A stretch of 64,000 bases of DNA from an uncultured Clostridium sp. (GTDB lineage: Bacteria; Bacillota; Clostridia; Lachnospirales; Lachnospiraceae): the NCBI GenBank assembly GCA_946498245.1, contig CAMMNN010000008.1:1-64000 (forward strand), given 5' to 3'. How positions within the stretch are numbered: position 1 is the first letter of the stretch; every line of letters starts with the position of its first letter. This document shows positions 52,165 to 63,634 of the stretch, one piece after another. Both the position numbers and the translations under genes were made by a program. Below the pieces are notes generated by a model, which had not been told where the DNA came from, searched no databases, and saw only the letters and a list, made by a program, of their open reading frames with translations.

Positions 52165-52203
52165 TCTTATTCTTGACACAGGGTAGCCTTTACCTCTTTT
52201 GCA

Positions 52204-53169
52204 TTAATTTAAAAAGCTAAGAATAATCGGATCTGTGACAGGGGACGTAAAGGAAAATGCATTATTGCTGCCCTTATAAACATTTCCGTCTACCTCTATA
52301 AAATAATTCAGATGGTTTGTTTGAATGCTCTTATAAGTATCTGTAGCGCTTCTAAGGCCTAAGGCTTTAGCAAGGGCACAGGCTGTAACGGCAAAATCTC
52401 TGCACACCCCGGAATGTTCAATCAGGATTGCGTAATATTCCTGGTAAGGTTCATTTACTAAATTTGCCGTGTACTCTCCCTCATAATCATAGGAGCTTTT
52501 TTGGAGAACTTTTATAATTTCATTAGCCCTCTGGGCTTCTGTCATATTCTCAAAATCCATGCTGTTCAGCCAATTGCAGAACCATTCGTATATAATCTGC
52601 TCTCTTTCTTTTTGAGCATTATAGCTTTCTTCGTCTACATAAAATGTCGTTCCGTTTCTTTCGGCAACGTACATTCCATCAACTAAAGGCGCAAAATTTG
52701 CGATGTCCAAATAGTTGTAATAATCCATCTGTCCCGTAAGTCTTGCCTGCAAGCTCTCAGAACCAATGATGGAAAAGCCATAATAATCTACAGGAACGCG
52801 CAGTCCCCATTCGTCTATCTTATTTGCCAATGGGTGTTCCGGGTTGTATCCCTCATTGTGCTGTACCTGGTCGCCGGTTTTTTGCGGGAGCTGAGTCGAA
52901 AGCCATGCGTCTAAACTCAATCCAACGCTTTCATCACCCGCTACTGTGCAGCGATAAACGTAGCCGTTCTCGTCGAAATAATATCCTTCTCCCGTTCCAT
53001 CGCTGTCAGCGTCGATAAATTTAACGGTATTTACGGGATAAGAACCGTCGTCTTCCTGCCACCACCAGCCGTTTTCGTCCTTCTGCCATTGGCCTGCAAA
53101 GGCAGTGAGCGAAAGCGATGCCGTAAGCGCCCCTGTAAGTATGACTGCCAAAACCTTTTTACCTCTCAT
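52204..53169 (-). CDS. Secreted transglutaminase-like protein with N-terminal aromatic repeat (chromosomal copy A)
   Basis: Signal peptide; GQWQKDENGWWWQEDDG; SGVCRDFAVTACALAKALG...NHLNYFIEVDG. Confidence 0.8.
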   Translation of the reverse strand: MRGKKVLAVILTGALTASLSLTAFAGQWQKDENGWWWQEDDGSYPVNTVKFIDADSDGTGEGYYFDENGYVYRCTVAGDESVGLSLDAWLSTQLPQKTGDQVQHNEGYNPEHPLANKIDEWGLRVPVDYYGFSIIGSESLQARLTGQMDYYNYLDIANFAPLVDGMYVAERNGTTFYVDEESYNAQKEREQIIYEWFCNWLNSMDFENMTEAQRANEIIKVLQKSSYDYEGEYTANLVNEPYQEYYAILIEHSGVCRDFAVTACALAKALGLRSATDTYKSIQTNHLNYFIEVDGNVYKGSNNAFSFTSPVTDPIILSFLN

Positions 53170-53201
53170 TATGAAAACTCCCCTTTAAATTTTTATCTGT
53201 T

Positions 53202-53222
53202 TTAGACTTTAAAGCGGTAGCC
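53202..53222 (-). repeat. Putative att site, relic of a response-regulator 3' end
   Basis: Minus strand GGCTACCGCTTTAAAGTCTAA = GYRFKV*; 17/21 identical to 61453-61473. Confidence 0.65.
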
Positions 53223-53347
53223 GAAACTCCGTACGATGTTTAGCCATATCTAAATGTCTTATACCTGGTTAAACCTTGTTATTTCTATAAAGTTTTCTCT
53301 TTTAACCTTTTCTCTCCCTGTCAAATTTTTTTAGCCTTGGGAACTTC

Positions 53348-53367
53348 GGTAGTTTTTGTGGTAGTAT
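53348..53367 (+). repeat. Candidate integrase arm-type repeat
   Basis: GGTAGTTTTTGTGGTAGTAT, cf. GGTAGTAAATCTGGTAGTAT at 61359. Confidence 0.55.
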
Positions 53368-53448
53368 GGGAGTATCATACTACCAACAGGAAAAGGTTCA
53401 AAATCATCTTTATCCAAAAAAGACAGCATAGGGAAAGAATACCCTCCC

Positions 53449-53670
53449 CTATGCCACTTTGCCGTCATACCACGCCCAAAAGGAATTAGCGAATACAACT
53501 ATCTTCTTACTCCCTATCCTCTCCACCCGAAAAGGCGGGTCTTCAAGATACTTATAAATAAGACTCTCTGAAACATCAAATAAGTCCATCAAATCTTTTG
53601 GCGTTAAAAATAGTTTTCTTCTCAATCCATCTGGATTCGGGCAAACAGCACATAAATAATTATTTTCCAT
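53449..53670 (-). CDS. Excisionase/HTH_17-like DNA-binding protein
   Basis: LTPKDLMDLFDVSESLIYKYLEDPPFRVERIGSKKIVVFA; start taken at MENNYLC. Confidence 0.75.
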   Translation of the reverse strand: MENNYLCAVCPNPDGLRRKLFLTPKDLMDLFDVSESLIYKYLEDPPFRVERIGSKKIVVFANSFWAWYDGKVA

Positions 53671-53854
53671 AACTGTTTTCCTTTCTGGTTCAAACAATTA
53701 TGGAGGAAGTCGATACTAGAACGCTCTCTACCTTTGAACCATAGATATGATAAGTATTGCGTTTTGCATTACTTACGCGTTAGGTGTATCAACTAGCATA
53801 TTTATTATATCTCTTTCTGCCTGTGTTGTCCACAAAAAACTAAAGCGTGGAGCG

Positions 53855-53895
53855 TTGTCAAGGACGGCAACGCCGTTTATTTTATCCTTGACAAA
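53855..53895. repeat. Nested inverted repeat in mob upstream region
   Basis: TTGTCAAGGA...TCCTTGACAA (10/10) enclosing ACGGCaacGCCGT. Confidence 0.75.
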
Positions 53896-53991
53896 AACGG
53901 AACGCCTATACTGGCGTTTGGTGGAACAGTTCTATCTGTTCCGCCTTGATTACCCCTATGCCCTTGCACTTCCAAGCCCTCGGCGTTTGAG

Positions 53992-54028
53992 AGCCAGTTC
54001 CAAAATCGCAATTTTGGTATAACTGGCT
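53992..54028. promoter_or_regulatory. oriT-like nested palindrome upstream of the relaxase gene
   Basis: AGCCAGTT-CCAAAAT-cgca-ATTTTGG-tat-AACTGGCT, 80 bp before the MobV gene. Confidence 0.55.
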
Positions 54029-54107
54029 ACACCAAAATTACATACTAATTTTAGAAGCACTGGAACGCTCTAAACGCTTTTTAAATCAAACGGGAGGACT
54101 TTTCTAT

Positions 54108-54959
54108 ATGAACATACAAAAATATACCAAAGAGGCCAGCGGACACCTCTTTAAGCACTTTGAACGGGCAAAAGACACCCACGGAAATTATATTAAATTT
54201 GGCAACAGGGATATTGATTTATCAAAGACTTTTTTAAACTATAATGTAGCCCCTAACCGCGGAATGAACCAATCAGAATATCTCGATAAAAGGCTTTCCG
54301 AAGTCTACCACTTGAAACGGAAAGACCTTAATGTTATGTGTTCGTGGGTCATAACCGCACCCAATGACTTACCACCCGAAAAACGCCACCAGTTTTTCAA
54401 TGCGGCTTATCGTTTCATGGCGGCACGATACGGAGAGGAAAATGTTCTATCTGCTTATGTCCATTTGGACGAGAACACGGAGAAAGGACACGCACATATG
54501 CACTTTTCTTTTATACCTGTTATCTATGATAAAAAGAAAAACCGCTACAAGGTATCTGCTAAGGAAGTGATAAATAAAATGGAACTGCAAAAGATACACA
54601 AAGAAGCAGAAACCTATCTGTCAAAAGCCTTAAAATCCTCTGTTCATCTTCTCAACGGAACCACCAAACAAGGAAACAAGACGATAGCAGAATTAAAGAT
54701 GTTTAATGATCGTATCGAAAAAGAGCGTGAGGATTTTAGAACGCTCTCAAAAATAACCGAAAATCTGGCGGACGATATAGCGGAGAAGGAACAGAAAATC
54801 GAGGAATTAAAAAAAGAGCAGGACAGGCTAAATGAGATATGCAGGAAATTGAGAGAACTTATAAAAGCCCTGTTTCCGGATGTTATGAAACTCATTGAAA
54901 AAGACAGAGAGAAGCAACGAGAACGGCAGAGAGAAAAAATTTTATCCATATCGAGATAA
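54108..54959 (+). CDS. MobV-type relaxase (Pre/Mob)
   Basis: YNVAPNRGMNQSEYLDKRLSEV; AYVHLDENTEKGHAHMHFSFIPV. Confidence 0.9.
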   Translation: MNIQKYTKEASGHLFKHFERAKDTHGNYIKFGNRDIDLSKTFLNYNVAPNRGMNQSEYLDKRLSEVYHLKRKDLNVMCSWVITAPNDLPPEKRHQFFNAAYRFMAARYGEENVLSAYVHLDENTEKGHAHMHFSFIPVIYDKKKNRYKVSAKEVINKMELQKIHKEAETYLSKALKSSVHLLNGTTKQGNKTIAELKMFNDRIEKEREDFRTLSKITENLADDIAEKEQKIEELKKEQDRLNEICRKLRELIKALFPDVMKLIEKDREKQRERQREKILSISR

Positions 54960-55023
54960 AAACGGGCGATTTCCCCTAACACTTCTTTCATAGTATTATT
55001 GAATGTAAAGGAGGTACACGATT

Positions 55024-55176
55024 ATGGAAAAATCGCTTGATGAACTGATAGCAGAAGCCCGCCGGGAATGTGAAGCGGAAAAACTTGCCAAAAAGAAAAA
55101 GCGGTATAGTGAAGATGAAGTTGAGGAACTGGTAAGACTTATAAATAATCTTAATGAAATTGAAGAAATGCGATAA
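55024..55176 (+). CDS. Small charged hypothetical protein, 50 aa
   Basis: MEKSLDELIAEARRECEAEKLAKKKKRYSEDEVEELVRLINNLNEIEEMR after GGAGGT; not in ORF track. Confidence 0.6.
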   Translation: MEKSLDELIAEARRECEAEKLAKKKKRYSEDEVEELVRLINNLNEIEEMR

Positions 55177-55398
55177 CTTTCAAATTTGTACGATTTTTTA
55201 TCTTTTCATATTTTGTTCGGTCAAAAGGATATGAGGGCACAGGCTTTTCATATCCTTCTTTTTATTCATATTTTATTCATAAATTGTTTACAATTTGTCC
55301 ACTTTTTGTCCCTTTTGAACTTACATTATACTGGTGAATCAAAAAAATAAATTGTTTGGAGCGGTCGGCGTCGTCCACCGCCATGTAAAGGAGAAAAT

Positions 55399-55803
55399 AT
55401 GATAAATAGAAAAAATCGTAGAAACCTAACATCACTTGAGTATACAGGACTTGAAAGCCTTCTGCAACGTATTATAACTGAATACGAAGAAAGCCTCGGA
55501 ATACTTTCCGAAGAACAGACACCCGTTAATGCTATTACGAGAAGGTCGGCTCGCAGTGTTGAAATTTTTGATGGCGCATATGACGCATATACTCTCAATG
55601 GTTTTGCAATAAAAGCAATCTCTTACAAAAACAGTATATGCGAATTGCAGGGATTTTTCCTTAACGGCAAGGATATTGAAGATTGCGAGGAAGAAGATTA
55701 CATCTTGATAGATATAACCTCAATGCTTGATGAAGAATATATTGACCTTGATTGGCTTATGGAACAAATTGAAAACGAACATGAAAAGAAAGGAAATCGG
55801 TAA
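55399..55803 (+). CDS. Hypothetical protein, tandem paralogue 1
   Basis: LEYTGLESLLQRIITEYEESLGI...ITRRSARSVEIFDGAYDAYTLNG. Confidence 0.7.
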   Translation: MINRKNRRNLTSLEYTGLESLLQRIITEYEESLGILSEEQTPVNAITRRSARSVEIFDGAYDAYTLNGFAIKAISYKNSICELQGFFLNGKDIEDCEEEDYILIDITSMLDEEYIDLDWLMEQIENEHEKKGNR

Positions 55804-55804
55804 A

Positions 55805-56197
55805 ATGAAGTACGGTAAAACAAATTTAGAATATTTCGGATTGGAAACACTTTTTCAGAACATCATAAACGCAAATGAAGCAGTTATGGGTATTTGCGGC
55901 GGATACACAAAATCTGTGGACATCACAAGGCGGATACCAGCAGGTCTTGAGGTCTTTGACGGAGAATATGATGTATATACTGTCGGCGAGATGGCTGTAT
56001 CGGCTCTGCGTTGCTACAACGGCAAATACTACCTTTACGGCTATGACATGAGAAACAGGGAAATTGAAAACCTCAGCTTTGATGAAACGCCAGACGTAAA
56101 AGTGAATATAAGCGAGTTTGCCGAAAGCTATCATGTTGACATTGACAAACTGCTTTTAAAGATACATAGGGCGGTTGGAAAATCAAAAAGAGCATAA
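55805..56197 (+). CDS. Hypothetical protein, tandem paralogue 2
   Basis: LEYFGLETLFQNIINANEAVMGI...ITRRIPAGLEVFDGEYDVYTVGE; start taken at MKYGKTN. Confidence 0.7.
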   Translation: MKYGKTNLEYFGLETLFQNIINANEAVMGICGGYTKSVDITRRIPAGLEVFDGEYDVYTVGEMAVSALRCYNGKYYLYGYDMRNREIENLSFDETPDVKVNISEFAESYHVDIDKLLLKIHRAVGKSKRA

Positions 56198-56234
56198 GTT
56201 TAAGGGAGAGGGCTTCTCTCCCCAGCACTTGTAA

Positions 56235-56262
56235 AAAGAGCGTCCATAGCGGGCGCTCTTTT
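56235..56262 (+). terminator. Intrinsic terminator
   Basis: AAAAGAGCGTCCatagcgGGCGCTCTTTT. Confidence 0.8.
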
Positions 56263-56314
56263 AATACATTGATTTTTTGTGTGTCAGATACAAAAAGGGA
56301 GGCTTGGGATTTTA

Positions 56315-57124
56315 TCAGCTAATTCCTAATGAAGATAGTATTTCTTTTGATGGGCTATAGATTGCGCCATATCTTGCTTCATCCCGACTAAGATCGGCAG
56401 ATGTTAAATTATATGTGTCAGAACCATATGCCGCTATAGCAGAAGCATCATAATAATACCATTCCCCATTGATTTTTACATAATTCCATTGATGGCTATA
56501 TGTTTCTACAACAATAGAGTCCATCCCTAATAATCTAGTAATTAAGTGATATGTTTCCGCAAAACTACGGCACCCTCCAGATTTATAAAGTAATATATTT
56601 CCAATCGTCCCAAGTGGTAGCTGTTGTTTTCCATAGTTTGCTCCATTTGTGATAAACTCACCCGCTTTTTGTGCCTTTGTCAAATCATCAGCGTTCCTCC
56701 AATCAAAGGAATTAAGGAAATCACAAATCATTCCAATCATTTGATTAGCCTGCTCATATGTAAGGCTGTTTGCGTCCGCAATATACTGAATCGGGTCGGT
56801 TGCCACGCCATCACCATTCCGATAAGTTTCACCCGCTAATACTGCCGCTACTGCCGCAAGATTAGAGGAGCCGTTATTGATATATTGATACTTATCTGTA
56901 TAAGGTAGCCATGCACCATTAGCAGAAGCTATCATTGGGTCGGTGTACCCCGTATCATTTAACCCAAACTGTTCTAACAGGCCGGCCAGCGGATAATTCG
57001 GGTCGTAGGCTTCATTTTCCGCTTGAGTTTGTACCTCTTGATTTGCGAACGCCGTTATATTTGATGAAAGCGTAAGGGAAACAGCAAGTGCGCAGGCAAT
57101 CATTTTATAAAGTTTCTTTCTCAT
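56315..57124 (-). CDS. Secreted transglutaminase-like protein (element copy C)
   Basis: Signal peptide; SGGCRSFAETYHLITRLLG; SHQWNYVKINGEWYYYDAS. Confidence 0.85.
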   Translation of the reverse strand: MRKKLYKMIACALAVSLTLSSNITAFANQEVQTQAENEAYDPNYPLAGLLEQFGLNDTGYTDPMIASANGAWLPYTDKYQYINNGSSNLAAVAAVLAGETYRNGDGVATDPIQYIADANSLTYEQANQMIGMICDFLNSFDWRNADDLTKAQKAGEFITNGANYGKQQLPLGTIGNILLYKSGGCRSFAETYHLITRLLGMDSIVVETYSHQWNYVKINGEWYYYDASAIAAYGSDTYNLTSADLSRDEARYGAIYSPSKEILSSLGIS

Positions 57125-57168
57125 GTTTTACCTCCCCAAAACATGGTTTCTAATTTGATTATACCCCA

Positions 57169-57927
57169 TCACTGGAAGTATACGTAATCTGGAGTTGGTG
57201 TGTCAAGGTTTAATACATTATTTTGTCCAAAATAGCCAACACCATCTACCTGGATATAATAAACTGCGTGATCTCCAGTTCCAGAAACGGCAGCTTTTAA
57301 TCCAAGGGCTTTTGCTAAAGAAGCTGCTGTCATAGCGCATTCTGCACAGGCGCCCTTTTTATTAATTAATGTATTAATGTATGTATCTTTAGTGCTATTA
57401 TCATCATGTTGAAATTCTATATTGGACATGACTTTTTGAATTTCTCTTGCCTTTTCCATTTCAGACATATTCTCAAAATCAACGCTATTCAGCCAATTAC
57501 AGAACCAATTATAAAGGAGCTGCTCACTATTTCTATGCCAATCGTAATCTTCCTGTTCTGTATAGAACCTTGTTCCTGTTTCGGGATTTATCCACTCTCC
57601 AACTGGAGCAGCAAAATACTGATCCATCTGACCTGTCAGCATTGCTTGAACATTATTATTACAAATATAAAAGCCCGTAAGCGTCTGCATTGGAAGTCTT
57701 AAATTCCACTCATCAATCTTTCCGGCCAGCGGCGCAGCAGGGTTATAGCCGTCATTGTGGTGTACGCTTCCCGTGGTGTCCTGCCCCTCCGCAAGTTCTA
57801 CCCATTGACCGTTTGCGTCCTGCGCCCATTGTCCTGCATAAGAAAGACTTGCCACCGACAGCGCAAATACAGTTGTAAACGCCAGCGTCTTAAAATATCT
57901 GTTTCTCATAGTAAATCCCCTTTCCAC
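57169..57927 (-). CDS. Secreted transglutaminase-like protein (element copy B)
   Basis: HHNDGYNPAAPLAGKIDEWNLRLP...NWFCNWLNSVDFENMSEMEKAREI, close to 52204-53169. Confidence 0.8.
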   Translation of the reverse strand: MERGFTMRNRYFKTLAFTTVFALSVASLSYAGQWAQDANGQWVELAEGQDTTGSVHHNDGYNPAAPLAGKIDEWNLRLPMQTLTGFYICNNNVQAMLTGQMDQYFAAPVGEWINPETGTRFYTEQEDYDWHRNSEQLLYNWFCNWLNSVDFENMSEMEKAREIQKVMSNIEFQHDDNSTKDTYINTLINKKGACAECAMTAASLAKALGLKAAVSGTGDHAVYYIQVDGVGYFGQNNVLNLDTPTPDYVYFQ

Positions 57928-58094
57928 ACATTATGATTTCATTTTAAACTTGTTTTTAAAGCATTTCAACAATTTTCCAACATCTTTATCATACCATTAT
58001 TACACCTGTATTTCAATACAGCCTATATAATTTTACATCTTATTTTTACACACCTCTATTTTTATAATCTCTATAAAAAAGCAGGTGATACGCG

Positions 58095-58301
58095 ATGGGA
58101 CATATCGAAATAAAGTTGGAAGAATATCTGAAAGTCAACGGCATAAGTAAAAATAAAATATGCCAGAACTGCGGACTTCAAAGGACACAACTAAACAATT
58201 ATTGTAAAAACAAGGTTTGTCGTGTTGACCTTATGATTCTGGCAAAACTCTGCGACTACCTGGATTGTTCTGTTTCTGACATTCTCGAATATAAAAAGTA
58301 A
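58095..58301 (+). CDS. XRE/Cro-type HTH regulator
   Basis: MGHIEIKLEEYLKVNGISKNKICQNCGLQRTQLNNYCKNK. Confidence 0.85.
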   Translation: MGHIEIKLEEYLKVNGISKNKICQNCGLQRTQLNNYCKNKVCRVDLMILAKLCDYLDCSVSDILEYKK

Positions 58302-58322
58302 AGGGCGGCCTTGTGCCTCCCT

Positions 58323-59927
58323 TTAACTGTCCTGTTTCATATCTGCTTTTATATATCTTATCGTCCGCTCTGAACAATCGAGAGCCTCTGCAAGTTCTTT
58401 CGCTGTCATATTGCTATGTTCCTTTATAAATTCCATGCGACGCTGTTTTAATTCAGTTTTCCTTTTCCGGCTATCCCCGTATCTCTTATTATCATAACGC
58501 TTTAAGGCCCTTTTCCGCCGTTCCTCTCTCTGCCCCTCGGTATAACAGGCATAGGACTTTTCTAAGTCGCAGGATTGAAAGTTTAAAAGCTCTGCGATTC
58601 TTTCGTTTGTATATGTATAGTCGGTTTGGGATTGATAAACAGATTGTAATATTTGATCGGCTTCGTTTATGAAACCGTTATCTATACAATCATACAGAAT
58701 CGCTTCTACGTCCTCTATGCTGAATCTGGCCTTTTTACAGTAAACTGCCAGTATATGACAGAAGATAGCGCGGTAGCCTTGTGGAACGGTATATCTCCGT
58801 ATTGCATAATTTTGTAAATCCCGTATGATACGCAAGTATCTGCGCTTCGGAGAAAGAGGCTCTTGTATCAGTTCTTTTATAACAGTTCCTGTTCGAGTAT
58901 CTCTGCCTCTGCTCTGGCTAACTTCATCGGGAATATCGTATTTGATCCCGCTTTTCTTTTGCCTCCCTTTCGTCAAAGGTCGTTTACTTATCTGCGGCCC
59001 CTTTGTCGCTTTCTCCGCCTTATCCTTTCGCTCTCTCCAAGTGCCATTTTTTATCATAGTAGCTTTCCGCTTCTCGGAACGCCTCTTGATATTCTCACTG
59101 ACATATGTATCAACCGCCTCATTGGAACATCTGAAAAAATCAAGTCTTATGATACCCCTGTCTTTTGACTTATTGATATGAAAGAGCCTTGTTATTTTAA
59201 TGTTGTTTATATCTTTTACATTCCTGCTGTTGGGAAATCTTAAAATTCTCGATTTGTTCCGACAAGCTATGTCTGCTTTAAAATATGTTATCAAATAATC
59301 CGTATATTGCTTTCTCAGGTCTGTCCCTTGCCCGGATGTTAAATCAATTTCCCCTACCAGCCAATAAAGATGAAGCCCATGCCCGCTTGCAACTACCCAA
59401 TTAGGCAATACTTCCTCTGTTAAGTGATAAACTTCGCAAAGCCAGTTTTTTATCCTGCTCTCGTCTATCCGCGAAAAGTCCATTCCCTCTATATCGTCAA
59501 TATCAATATAAATCGTGTTAATTCTTGAAACGTTCCTGTCAGTCCTCCAACCCGTAAAGAGTGCTGGCGAAAAGTATAAGTTCACGTTTTTATCTGCAAG
59601 GATTGATAAATCCCTCAATGCCTGCTCCCTATCGCCATACGAGAAATTATAGCTTATTCCTTCGGAAGATGAAGCCATGCACCAGATACACTCGTTTCTA
59701 CCAAGTGCGGGAAAAACATCATTGAAAAACCGCTTCAACTCTGCTTTCATACTTATACACCGAGATAAACGGCATTTTATCCATAAGTCAAAAACAAAGA
59801 AATATTTGTCGCTATTATGTTCCATATCGTCATGGCTTTCGTCAAACTCAATCATTAAATCTTTATACTTTCCCATAAAAATCCTCCAGCATAGTTTTTT
59901 CAAAAATAGTATGTATGAAAATCCCAA
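58323..59927 (-). CDS. Primase/PrimPol-like replication protein with C-terminal HTH
   Basis: NTIYIDIDDIEGMDF; WVVASGHGLHLYWLVGEID; C-terminal MTAKELAEALDCSERTIRYIKADM. Confidence 0.75.
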   Translation of the reverse strand: MGFSYILFLKKLCWRIFMGKYKDLMIEFDESHDDMEHNSDKYFFVFDLWIKCRLSRCISMKAELKRFFNDVFPALGRNECIWCMASSSEGISYNFSYGDREQALRDLSILADKNVNLYFSPALFTGWRTDRNVSRINTIYIDIDDIEGMDFSRIDESRIKNWLCEVYHLTEEVLPNWVVASGHGLHLYWLVGEIDLTSGQGTDLRKQYTDYLITYFKADIACRNKSRILRFPNSRNVKDINNIKITRLFHINKSKDRGIIRLDFFRCSNEAVDTYVSENIKRRSEKRKATMIKNGTWRERKDKAEKATKGPQISKRPLTKGRQKKSGIKYDIPDEVSQSRGRDTRTGTVIKELIQEPLSPKRRYLRIIRDLQNYAIRRYTVPQGYRAIFCHILAVYCKKARFSIEDVEAILYDCIDNGFINEADQILQSVYQSQTDYTYTNERIAELLNFQSCDLEKSYACYTEGQREERRKRALKRYDNKRYGDSRKRKTELKQRRMEFIKEHSNMTAKELAEALDCSERTIRYIKADMKQDS

Positions 59928-60001
59928 AATCTCACATCAAAAGAGATGATAATATGGTAGTATATATATACTATACTCAATCGGAAATTTTTGCCGCCCC
60001 C

Positions 60002-60032
60002 AAAAAAGCCGGAACCTTGGCGGCTCCGGCTT
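60002..60032 (-). terminator. Intrinsic terminator of integrase
   Basis: Minus strand AAGCCGGAGCCGCCAAGGTTCCGGCTTTTTT. Confidence 0.85.
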
Positions 60033-60038
60033 ATCCCA

Positions 60039-61295
60039 CTAATTATCCAGCACTGAAAAATCCACTTTTAAATTTTGATTCCAAAAATCAATAATCTCCT
60101 GCCTGTCACCTTGATCGTGCCAATAAACAGAGGTTGAAGTGTTATCTTCAATCGAATGTCCCGCACAGCCATAGACTTGAAACGGATTAACTTTTCCGCT
60201 ATTTAACAATAGGCTTATAAACGTATGTCTTAAATCATGCAAGCGAACCAGCGGCAAAGGCTCTTTGTTATCTTTTTCCAATCTCTTATTGATACGCTTT
60301 TGCAATTCTTTAAAACGGCGGCTCACTTTTCCTGGATGTGGCAGATAATCATTTACAATATTTGTTTTCGTCAAATAGACATAATCATCTACTTCAAGTT
60401 TTTTCCCCTGTTTCCAATCATTCTGCTGCTCCTGCTCTAATTTGATAAATCTTTCTAGCACTTCACAAATGCAGGAAACTCTTGTCTTTTCCCCTTTTGG
60501 CAATTTTTCAAGGAAGCCTGTGTTTAATTGCACTCTTGCAGTATCAACTAAAATTTGTTTTTTATCGAAGTCTATTTTGCCCCATTTCAGCCCGCATAAT
60601 TCAGAACGCCTCATCCCCGCCAAAAGTGGAAAACTGACCATCAGTAATACGCTTCTATCTTTTTCCAGCAACACTTGATTAAGCAAAGTATTCGCTTGCT
60701 CTAATGTCAAAGCAGTTGCCTCGTACCTTTGAATTTTTCCATAGTCAGCTTCAAGCACCACATTTTCACTGATACCATACTTTGAAAAATTCTTCTTCAT
60801 AAACCGCCACAAATCAACTAAGTGGCTTTTATGCTTCTGAATCGTGTTTGCACTCAACTCTAAGTCGTTTTGACAATAAAGAAAATAATCCTCTATTGCG
60901 GCGGTATCGACTTTCTTTAAATCCATATCTCCAAAAAAATCTATAAAGTGCTTATGTTGTGAATTTTTTTGAAGTTTATAAGATTCACTCCATTCTTTAT
61001 CGCTGTCATAGTATTTTTCCTTATAATCCTTGATTACCTGCTCTATATAGACTTTTCCCGTAGCACCAGTAATCTTCTTACGCCGTTTTTCCGCATTATT
61101 TTTTCCTATAAGGGCTTTTGCCTCTTTCAGCGTGTTTACTACCCTTGTAGTCTTTTTTTGCCGCTCCTTCCGCTTTCCTGTCTTTGGGTCTGTAATCATC
61201 TGCCGCCCCATGTCAATGGAAACCACATATTTCCCATCTTTGATTCTCTGCTTGATTCCTGCGATACCTGTGTCTTTTACTTCGTCTTTTCTCAT
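60039..61295 (-). CDS. Tyrosine-type site-specific integrase
   Basis: GMRRSELCGLKWGKIDF; LHDLRHTFISLLLNSG; HSIEDNTSTSVYWH. Confidence 0.95.
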   Translation of the reverse strand: MRKDEVKDTGIAGIKQRIKDGKYVVSIDMGRQMITDPKTGKRKERQKKTTRVVNTLKEAKALIGKNNAEKRRKKITGATGKVYIEQVIKDYKEKYYDSDKEWSESYKLQKNSQHKHFIDFFGDMDLKKVDTAAIEDYFLYCQNDLELSANTIQKHKSHLVDLWRFMKKNFSKYGISENVVLEADYGKIQRYEATALTLEQANTLLNQVLLEKDRSVLLMVSFPLLAGMRRSELCGLKWGKIDFDKKQILVDTARVQLNTGFLEKLPKGEKTRVSCICEVLERFIKLEQEQQNDWKQGKKLEVDDYVYLTKTNIVNDYLPHPGKVSRRFKELQKRINKRLEKDNKEPLPLVRLHDLRHTFISLLLNSGKVNPFQVYGCAGHSIEDNTSTSVYWHDQGDRQEIIDFWNQNLKVDFSVLDN

Positions 61296-61358
61296 TCTTT
61301 TTCCTTTCCTGTGCCATACTCCTCTTAAAATTTAAGATAGCACATCTTTAAAAATTTT

Positions 61359-61378
61359 GGTAGTAAATCTGGTAGTAT
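61359..61378 (+). repeat. Candidate integrase arm-type repeat
   Basis: GGTAGTAAATCTGGTAGTAT, same orientation as 53348. Confidence 0.55.
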
Positions 61379-61452
61379 AAAGAATGATTTTTCTGATAAA
61401 AAAGAGAAAGATCCTTGCAAATACAAGGATCTCACAGGTATCATTTCCGTTT

Positions 61453-62142
61453 TTACACCTTGAAGCGATAGCCCACGCCCCATATGGTTTCTATGTATTG
61501 GGGCTTTGCCGTATTAAATTCAATTTTTTCCCGAATTTTTTTAATATGGACGGTTACTGTGGCAATATCGCCGATAGATTCCATATCCCAAATCTTGCTG
61601 AAAAGCTCTTCTTTTGTGAACACATGGTTTGGGTGCTCTGCCAGGAAGGTAAGGAGATCGAACTCTTTTGTGGTAAAATTCTTCTCTTCCCCGTTTATCC
61701 ATACACGGCGGGCCGTCTTATCGATCTTGAGTCCCCGGATTTCGATAATGTCATTTTCCGGCAGACCGCTTCCGATAAGCCTTTCGTATCTGGCCAAATG
61801 GGCCTTTACCCGGGCCACCATTTCGCTGGGAGAAAAGGGTTTGGTAATATAGTCGTCTGCTCCCAGGCCCAGTCCCCGGATTTTATCAATATCCTCTTTT
61901 TTGGCGGAAACCATGATAATGGGAATATTTTTCTTCTCTCTCAGCTTCCTGCAGATTTCAAATCCATCGGTTCCCGGAAGCATCAAATCCAGTATCAGCA
62001 GGTCAAAGTCTTCATTCAGAGCCCGTTCCAGGCCGTTTGTTCCGTCATTGTCAATTTCCACCTCAAAGCCTGACAGCTCCAGATAGTCTTTCTCCAGTTC
62101 CGCAATACTCTCTTCATCTTCGATTATCAGTATTCTGCTCAT
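61453..62142 (-). CDS. OmpR-family response regulator (VanR-like)
   Basis: MSRILIIEDEESIAELEKDYL; LLILDLMLPGTDGFEIC; C-term YIETIWGVGYRFKV. Confidence 0.95.
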   Translation of the reverse strand: MSRILIIEDEESIAELEKDYLELSGFEVEIDNDGTNGLERALNEDFDLLILDLMLPGTDGFEICRKLREKKNIPIIMVSAKKEDIDKIRGLGLGADDYITKPFSPSEMVARVKAHLARYERLIGSGLPENDIIEIRGLKIDKTARRVWINGEEKNFTTKEFDLLTFLAEHPNHVFTKEELFSKIWDMESIGDIATVTVHIKKIREKIEFNTAKPQYIETIWGVGYRFKV

Positions 62143-63634
62143 CTTGAATAACCTCCTGGTATTTTCTCAGGACAAAATGAATTTCCGTCCCCATTCCTTC
62201 TTTACTGGTGGCCCAGATACGCCCATTGTGGTCTTCAATAATCTTCCTTACAATAGACAGGCCAATGCCGCTTCCTCCTTTTTGGGAATTTCGGGAAGCG
62301 TCCGTCCGGTAAAAGCGGTCAAAAATATTAGGCAGATCCCTTGCTGCAATTCCTCTTCCGTTGTCCTCGATTCCGACCTCTATAAAATCTCCCACATCTT
62401 TAATGCGGATATTGATAATGCCTTTCTTTTTATCAAAATATTTTACCGAATTGCTGATGATATTGTTGACAACTCTTTTTAGCTGCTCCGCATCTGCAAT
62501 GACGCAGACATCATCATCTACGTAATTAAAATATCCCAGCTCTATGCCCTGGGCTTCCAGATCCAGCCCTACTTCCTCCACACAATCTTTAAAGTACTGA
62601 GCTACATTAATCTTAGAAAACGTATAGGGAATCTTATTGGTGTCGATTTTGGAATAAAAGGTCAGCTCATCAATCAGCCGATCCATGTCATTGGCTTTAT
62701 TATAAATGGTACGGATATACTTGTCCAATTTTTCCGGCGACGAGGCGACTCCGTCTAAAATTCCTTCCACATAGCCCTTAATAGCTGTAATGGGGGTTTT
62801 TAAGTCGTGGGAAATATTACTGATCAATTCCTTGCTTTCCTTGTCATATTGGACTTTTTCTTCTGTGGATTCCTTCAGGCGAATCCGCATCTCTTCAAAA
62901 TCCTGACATAACTGGCCGATTTCGTCCTCGTCCTCTACTTCCAGGGAAAAATCCAGATTTCCGTCCCGAATCTTCTTTGTTGCCTCCTTTAATTTTCCCA
63001 AAGGATGGATAATGGAACGGTAAATCCACATGGCCATAGCCATACCCGCTACAATCAATATTAAAATGCCGGAAATCAGCATTTCCTGAAACATCATCTT
63101 TACTTCCGGCAAAAAGTCATCTACCCGGGACACCAAAAAAGCGGAACCTTCCGTTCCGTCAGGATATAAAAAATCCACCTGTTTGATTAAGTGCTGGCTG
63201 TCCCCGTCCAGATACAGCCCGCCTTCTTCCATGCCCTCGGCGCTGCCGTAGGGAGGCAGGGAAGAAAGGACATCTTCTTCCGCCGTGTTGTCCCCGTCCC
63301 CGGCGTAGATAATTTCTTCTCCTTTCCGGACTACCAAATACGCATAATACTGTTCCAACAGCTCGTTCATTTCGTTTAAGTAGTCTATATCGTCAAAATT
63401 TCCGGAATCACTGGAAATCGTCTCTATTAATTTCTCCTGGTACCGCTGAGTCAGCCGGTTAAATGCCTGAACAGAGTTTCCGGAAAACAGATCGATGGTT
63501 TCCGTCAGCCCATAGGCCTTGCTGAAAGCTTTTGCCTGATAGCTGGACAATCCCATTACTACCATGTATATCAAGAGGATCGGTACCAGGGTAATGGTGA
63601 TGAAGGCTATAGCCAGCCTTGTTTTCAGCTTCAT
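62114..63634 (-). CDS. HAMP-containing sensor histidine kinase
   Basis: SNISHDLKTPITAIKGYVEGI; IEDNGRGIAARDLPNIFDRFYR. Confidence 0.95.
   Translation of the reverse strand: MKLKTRLAIAFITITLVPILLIYMVVMGLSSYQAKAFSKAYGLTETIDLFSGNSVQAFNRLTQRYQEKLIETISSDSGNFDDIDYLNEMNELLEQYYAYLVVRKGEEIIYAGDGDNTAEEDVLSSLPPYGSAEGMEEGGLYLDGDSQHLIKQVDFLYPDGTEGSAFLVSRVDDFLPEVKMMFQEMLISGILILIVAGMAMAMWIYRSIIHPLGKLKEATKKIRDGNLDFSLEVEDEDEIGQLCQDFEEMRIRLKESTEEKVQYDKESKELISNISHDLKTPITAIKGYVEGILDGVASSPEKLDKYIRTIYNKANDMDRLIDELTFYSKIDTNKIPYTFSKINVAQYFKDCVEEVGLDLEAQGIELGYFNYVDDDVCVIADAEQLKRVVNNIISNSVKYFDKKKGIINIRIKDVGDFIEVGIEDNGRGIAARDLPNIFDRFYRTDASRNSQKGGSGIGLSIVRKIIEDHNGRIWATSKEGMGTEIHFVLRKYQEVIQDEQNTDNRR

Follow-up and report, generated by a model that had tools for sequence, protein, structure and literature searches.

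Small mobilizable elements of gut bacteria are mostly known for cargo conferring drug resistance, defence or metabolic functions. In the literature searched, no papers tying transglutaminase-like proteins to such elements were found. TgpA, a periplasmic envelope protein with a transglutaminase domain, is an active transglutaminase in vitro (PMC3507681). TraAd and TrsAd of lactococcal conjugative plasmids are surface adhesins built on peptidoglycan-hydrolase domains (PMC11067333). Here we consider a stretch of 64,000 nucleotides (the window) from contig CAMMNN010000008.1 of an uncultured Clostridium sp. (Lachnospiraceae). It contains an integrative mobilizable element with two genes, B and C, encoding secreted transglutaminase-like proteins, and a small regulator gene divergent from B. 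A relative of B, gene A, lies just beyond the left attachment site.

The proteins resemble members of the PF01841 superfamily (PDB entries 9crn, 3isr, 4xz7) in sequence profile, fold and placement of the Cys and His residues. They differ in the lack of the canonical Asp in A and B, and in being carried on a mobile element with a divergent regulator. The element shares with MobV-type integrative mobilizable elements a relaxase, a tyrosine integrase, a replication-type protein (Rep) and the lack of transfer machinery, whereas the 3' end of a response-regulator gene as the target and the secreted transglutaminase-like cargo set it apart. The link to choline-binding and other cell-wall-binding repeat proteins (PF19085, PF01473) is that relatives of A bear such repeats; however, B has only a stub of them, and C has none. 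As in the case of TraAd and TrsAd (PMC11067333), these are element-coded surface proteins built on an enzyme-type domain, but there the domains are peptidoglycan hydrolases within a conjugation system. The genes considered here make up a regulated cassette of their own, and the element that carries it is mobilizable. On balance, we favour the interpretation that B and C, together with the regulator, constitute a regulated, mobile cassette, and that its surface proteins either modify the carrier's surface polymers or bind to them.

Cargo genes and their relatives

Three genes on the minus strand encode the transglutaminase-like proteins.

52204-53169, minus strand: copy A, secreted transglutaminase-like protein, 321 amino acids, just beyond the left attachment site
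57169-57909, minus strand: copy B, secreted transglutaminase-like protein, 246 amino acids from the ATG; Cys187, His213, Gln228/Asn229
56315-57124, minus strand: copy C, secreted transglutaminase-like protein belonging to another clade, 269 amino acids; Cys185-His211-Asp226

The ATG at 57909, preceded by a good ribosome-binding site, is more likely the start of B than the GTG at 57927, with which the reading frame would span 57169-57927. Residue numbers of B count from Arg2 of the protein started at the ATG, in line with the model. C lies 44 bp downstream of B, and the two genes are probably co-transcribed.

All three reading frames had been seen in a sequence-only reading of the window, and the motifs that it quoted as common to A and B are indeed there. 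B is 46% identical to A over 209 amino acids (E 2.9e-48, far beyond chance) and 28% identical to C (E 2e-7, a distant similarity that is still far beyond chance). Apart from itself, B matches only A and C in the entire genome. The kinship of the cargo with the flanking gene, claimed in that reading for both B and C, holds for B as a true relative of A, whereas C shares the fold and belongs to another clade. At the curated cut-off of 23 bits, the Pfam Transglut_core profile (PF01841) recognizes A (23.1 bits, E 9e-5) and B (24.4 bits, E 4e-5), and the score of C is slightly below (21.5 bits, E 3e-4). As the same reading had it, all three proteins bear signal peptides. These are of the Sec type: each protein opens with a charged, hydrophobic, AxA-type signal peptide, as read from the sequence. 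In the phylogenetic tree, A pairs with a frameshifted copy from strain D16-56 (support 100/99), which sits near a flagellin gene, and B is placed elsewhere in the same family. This rules out a recent local duplication of A as the source of B.

The A/B family was surveyed by a pattern scan of one genome per species, about 85,000 species in all, which yielded nine loci. Five members, including B of the window, reside on mobile elements. The loci outside the window are as follows.

L085/L079, Enterocloster bolteae metagenome-assembled genome: element with a different Rep and integrase; relaxase 38% identical to that of the window
L081, another Lachnospiraceae metagenome-assembled genome: same element type as L085 (Rep 80%, integrase 90%, relaxase 72% identical)
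L082 (strain D16-56) and L083 (Clostridiaceae genome): element with a VirD4-type coupling protein, ArdC and a MobA/MobL relaxase, the Pfam assignments having been made on L083
L080: cluster of such genes on a contig of 4.5 kb
L084 and L086: chromosomal loci
L087: chromosomal, frameshifted
L088: fragment

A further element related to the L085 type (Rep 60%, relaxase 57%) was found in congener G217 and has a C-type gene in the same slot. The check proposed in the sequence-only reading, a survey of related elements for the same cargo, thus had a positive outcome: elements with related relaxases (L081, L085, L120) have such genes, and so does the MobA/MobL element (L082, L083), though none were seen in the stretches of 8-15.5 kb read at the four loci with the closest intact integrases (L072-L075). 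Therefore we consider the genes to be recurrent cell-surface cargo, not a one-off copy of a neighbouring gene. The collections of viral contigs, plasmids and phages contained no match, and viral origin and plasmid carriage were dropped. The same applies to a role as a defence system, as A, B and C have no match in the defence library.

A divergent regulator

The region upstream of B contains a regulatory gene, overlooked in the sequence-only reading, and two candidate regulatory sites.

58095-58301, plus strand: Cro/C1-type helix-turn-helix (HTH) regulator, 68 amino acids, divergent from B (Pfam HTH_26, E 7e-16)
58006-58021: perfect 16-bp palindrome CTGTATTGAAATACAG, in overlap with the -35 hexamer of the promoter predicted for B
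57988-58016, minus strand: sigma-70 promoter predicted for B, TTGAAA-17-TATGAT, the second hexamer being preceded by TG; 10/12 consensus positions

At all five element-borne loci (the window, L085, L081, L082, L083) a small HTH protein is encoded divergently from the B-family gene, at a distance of 111-188 bp. The regulator of the window is 63% identical to the one in the same position in L085, and that of L081 is of a different HTH type. No divergent HTH gene was observed at four other copies (A, L080, L084, L087). The orientation of the rep gene relative to the regulator and transglutaminase genes differs between the window and L085, and therefore this pair behaves as a unit. The promoter of B is predicted by consensus match, with three such matches found against 1.4 expected by chance. 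The palindrome is a candidate operator of this promoter, judging by its position. No palindrome is shared by all intergenic regions, and thus an operator common to all loci is ruled out.

The integrative mobilizable element

The element and its surroundings contain the following features.

53200-61473: integrative mobilizable element, ~8.2 kb, with imperfect (19/23) repeats of the response-regulator 3' end at its borders
53200-53222: left repeat, GGCTACCGCTTTAAAGTCTAAAA read on the minus strand
61451-61473: right repeat, GGCTATCGCTTCAAGGTGTAAAA, last codons of the response-regulator gene
53342-53367: left inner repeat with a CTACC motif, probably an arm site for the integrase; the motif also occurs upstream of the integrases of G229 and G152
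61353-61378: right inner repeat with a CTACC motif, probably an arm site for the integrase
53449-53670, minus strand: small excisionase-like HTH protein at the left end, with weak HTH_17/HTH_11 matches only, assigned by position
54108-54959, plus strand: Mob_Pre/MobV-type relaxase (Pfam E 1e-23; NCBIfam MobV 91 bits, curated cut-off 100)
55399-55803, plus strand: small protein X1, with a 41% identical homologue beside the transglutaminase gene on the L083 element
55808-56197, plus strand: small protein X2, 35% identical to the same L083 protein
58323-59882, minus strand: replication-type protein with a C-terminal HTH (Rep), assigned by context
60039-61295, minus strand: tyrosine integrase (Pfam Phage_integrase, E 1e-13), adjoining the response-regulator 3' end
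61453-62142, minus strand: OmpR-type response regulator (RR), whose 3' end is the insertion target
62114-63634, minus strand: partner histidine kinase (HK), chromosomal, outside the element

Along the minus strand the genes are read in the order HK, RR, integrase, Rep, B, C, followed by X2, X1 and the relaxase on the opposite strand, and then by the excisionase-like gene and A. The left repeat and the RR 3' end of congener G217, which is uninterrupted there, agree in 20 out of 20 positions. The GC content is 38.7% in the element, 50.6% in the nearby chromosome and 43.5% in A. Neither a type IV secretion system nor other transfer machinery was seen between the two border repeats, and hence the element is mobilizable. 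With its integrase, its relaxase and repeats at both ends it has the make-up of an integrative mobilizable element, and the view of B and C as cargo of a small mobilizable element, already taken from the sequence, is upheld by these features together with the Rep protein and the low GC content.

The adjacent proteins X1 and X2 (~130 amino acids each) had no matches in Pfam, NCBIfam or PHROGs. Their common match in L083 (11576-11965) adjoins the transglutaminase gene on a conjugative-type element.

Fold and active site

The AlphaFold model of B has a mean predicted local distance difference test score (pLDDT) of 75.6 and a predicted template modelling score (pTM) of 0.77. For C, the values are 61.1 and 0.69, with pLDDT of about 70-90 in the core. 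The best PDB matches of the B model are 3isr (a putative cysteine protease of C. hutchinsonii), 9crn (TglA of Streptococcus pyogenes), the CPR-C4 protease and 4xz7 (a transglutaminase); those of the C model are 9crn, 3isr, 4xz7 and LapG. The TM-scores are modest because the alignment is limited to the core. Both proteins share the transglutaminase/papain-like fold with these structures, and structure prediction, named as a check in the sequence-only reading, points to cysteine protease and transglutaminase folds for both. The core profile matches 9crn with E 1.1e-6, with Cys and His in register.

Cys and His are retained in all three proteins, as had been noted. In the models, Cys is at the start of a helix and His at the start of a strand (Cys187 and His213 in B, Cys185 and His211 in C). 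The triad, which was also to be checked, is complete in C only. The position of Asp226 of C is occupied by Gln228 in B and by Ser in A, and is followed by an Asn that is invariant in the A/B family. Thus A and B have Cys and His with Ser or Gln plus the invariant Asn. All five element-borne B-family copies have kept Cys and His, and the transglutaminase genes of L082 and L083 are under purifying selection (ratio of nonsynonymous to synonymous substitution rates, dN/dS, 0.12). Judging by these residues, the element-borne members may still be enzymes.

No wall-binding repeats were matched by Pfam in A, B or C. By profile, A has one divergent repeat region, and its N-terminus matches a PHROG endolysin family. 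Choline-binding-type repeats are present in most relatives, with Pfam matches in L080 and L121 and a weak one in L083.

Several observations weigh against the favoured interpretation. The canonical Asp of the triad is not conserved in A, B and their relatives, and for the catalytic geometry the only guides were the alignment and the secondary structure. In the chromosomal pair L084a/L086a both Cys and His have been lost, yet this pair is under strong purifying selection (dN/dS 0.036), and therefore some family members serve a non-catalytic function. On the regulatory side, L085 does not have the palindrome in the corresponding place; regulators of the HTH_26 type are also encoded apart from such genes, the three next-best ones in the genus adjoining none; and the G217 element with the C-type gene has no such regulator. 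Finally, few elements were sampled, and L082 and L083 represent one element type.

The loss of the Asp and the conservation of a homologue without Cys and His are also what would be expected if the transglutaminase fold of the A/B family were a binding or adhesion module. The cassette would then encode a surface adhesin, which may help mating in the manner of TraAd and TrsAd (PMC11067333). The repeats borne by most relatives agree with this possibility, as does a related element in another genus (L121 8946-11954, G117), where an HTH_26 regulator is divergent from three tandem secreted proteins with choline-binding repeats. The backbone of this locus has a relaxase, VirD4 and a serine recombinase, and the three secreted proteins have no transglutaminase match; the layout suggests a more general slot for regulated surface proteins. 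However, Cys and His are kept in all mobile copies, C retains the full triad, B itself has no repeats, and the element does not bring its own mating apparatus. We regard a purely non-catalytic role as possible but doubtful.

Insertion site and status of gene A

The sequence-only reading had considered a functional connection between the cargo and the neighbouring two-component system. The closest intact integrases in four other genera (G229, G152, G143, G096; loci L072-L075) are all encoded directly downstream of orthologous HK-RR pairs, the RRs being 82-85% identical to that of the window. In congener G300, integrase remnants are found behind the RR gene. Overall, the five closest intact integrase loci, including that of the window, and one decayed copy are at the same RR gene. 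On the other hand, none of 25 more distant integrases has such an RR within a flank of ~1.5 kb. Since close relatives adjoin the orthologous RR gene and distant ones do not, integrases of this subfamily use the RR 3' end as their attachment site. The two-component neighbourhood therefore needs no functional explanation, and pairing of the cargo with this system is ruled out.

Gene A, taken previously for a resident paralogue, starts ~35 bp past the displaced stop codon of the RR gene. At the orthologous sites of congeners G217 and G299 (L118, L119) there is no transglutaminase gene. In G300, a decayed integrase of the same family is followed by a transglutaminase gene of another type (Transglut_core, E 6e-11). 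Taken together with the tree, which joins A with the D16-56 copy, this does not agree with long residence. A is better regarded as having reached this hotspot in an earlier event, although no outer attachment site came to light beyond it: the only candidate, the 7-bp sequence GGCTACC at 52182-52188, is too short to count.

Further observations were made at this site in other genomes. In G300 (L117 3380-4613) the decayed integrase is almost directly fused to the transglutaminase gene, a relic of an earlier insertion. In the empty site of G217 (L118 4680-4912), the stretch behind the RR stop codon contains a repeat that looks like a terminator, along with a sequence similar to the end of a group II intron. 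In G152 (L073 1-9258) the same RR 3' end is followed by two tandem integrases and then by large ATPase-type genes and a gene for a DGQHR-motif protein; by eye only, this island resembles Dnd/BREX-type defence islands. In G229 (L072 531-9424) the integrase is accompanied by a 332-residue lipoprotein-like protein and a 2595-residue surface protein (subtilisin-like, with repeat regions). A near-identical element with an integrase and a MobA-like relaxase occupies the RR 3' end in two genera (L074 in G143 and L075 in G096), the integrase of G096 being split into two frames.

Other explanations of the cargo

The cargo could have been picked up by chance from a large and common superfamily of surface proteins, with no special tie to mobile elements. 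Indeed, the wider transglutaminase/repeat superfamily is very common: profile A4 matches 235 of the 299 genomes of the family, repeat-only matches counted. However, the matches of profile A3 in other genera mostly cover the N-terminal repeat region only, and thus the A/B family proper is narrow. Five of its members, B of the window included, are element-borne, and the divergent HTH gene accompanies exactly these members. This explanation is therefore rather improbable.

Surface or entry exclusion, in which the secreted proteins would prevent another copy of the element or its helper from entering the carrier, seems still less probable. Exclusion via element-coded surface proteins is established in other systems, and the proteins considered here are secreted, regulated and encoded near relaxase genes on several element types. 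However, protein type and backbone are not tied to each other, as B-type or C-type genes may be found on a single backbone type and the same protein type on different backbones; relatives are also ordinary chromosomal genes; and accretion at the site, with A beside the element, speaks against strong exclusion. A secreted effector or toxin directed at other bacteria or the animal host, although suggested by secretion and the Cys-His fold, is very improbable, given the lack of an export module other than Sec and of an identified immunity gene, and no matches for A, B and C in the defence library or for B in the phage and plasmid collections.

Proposed mechanism and implications

We thus return to the regulated surface-protein cassette. 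B and C ride an integrative mobilizable element aimed at the 3' end of a conserved RR gene, and with the small Cro/C1-type regulator they would have been moved among unrelated mobilizable and conjugative-type backbones in Lachnospiraceae and their relatives. The regulator is most likely a repressor of the B-C promoter, acting via the palindrome over the -35 box. On derepression, B and C would be exported by Sec and would function on the wall or surface of the carrier cell. In most relatives, surface anchoring would be provided by choline-binding-type repeats, which B and C lack. The chemistry may involve Cys187 and His213 in B, assisted by Gln or Asn, and the full Cys-His-Asp triad in C. The proteins may act on surface proteins or wall peptides by rearranging their amide bonds, or, for a part of the family at least, may simply bind to these. 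Crosslinking, proteolysis and interference with the resident system, the roles raised in the sequence-only reading, are conjectural.

A bolder version seems unlikely to us: that the cassette, swapped among unrelated mobilizable and conjugative elements of gut Lachnospiraceae, remodels the carrier surface for the spread of the element, through mating contact or exclusion, by Cys-His-Asn chemistry or by a fold turned binder.

The existence of mobile copies with Cys and His, on the one hand, and of a conserved chromosomal copy without them, on the other, makes the choice between enzyme and binder directly testable. The recurrent, regulated cassette with the transglutaminase fold points to surface change as something that these elements bring to their hosts or force upon them.

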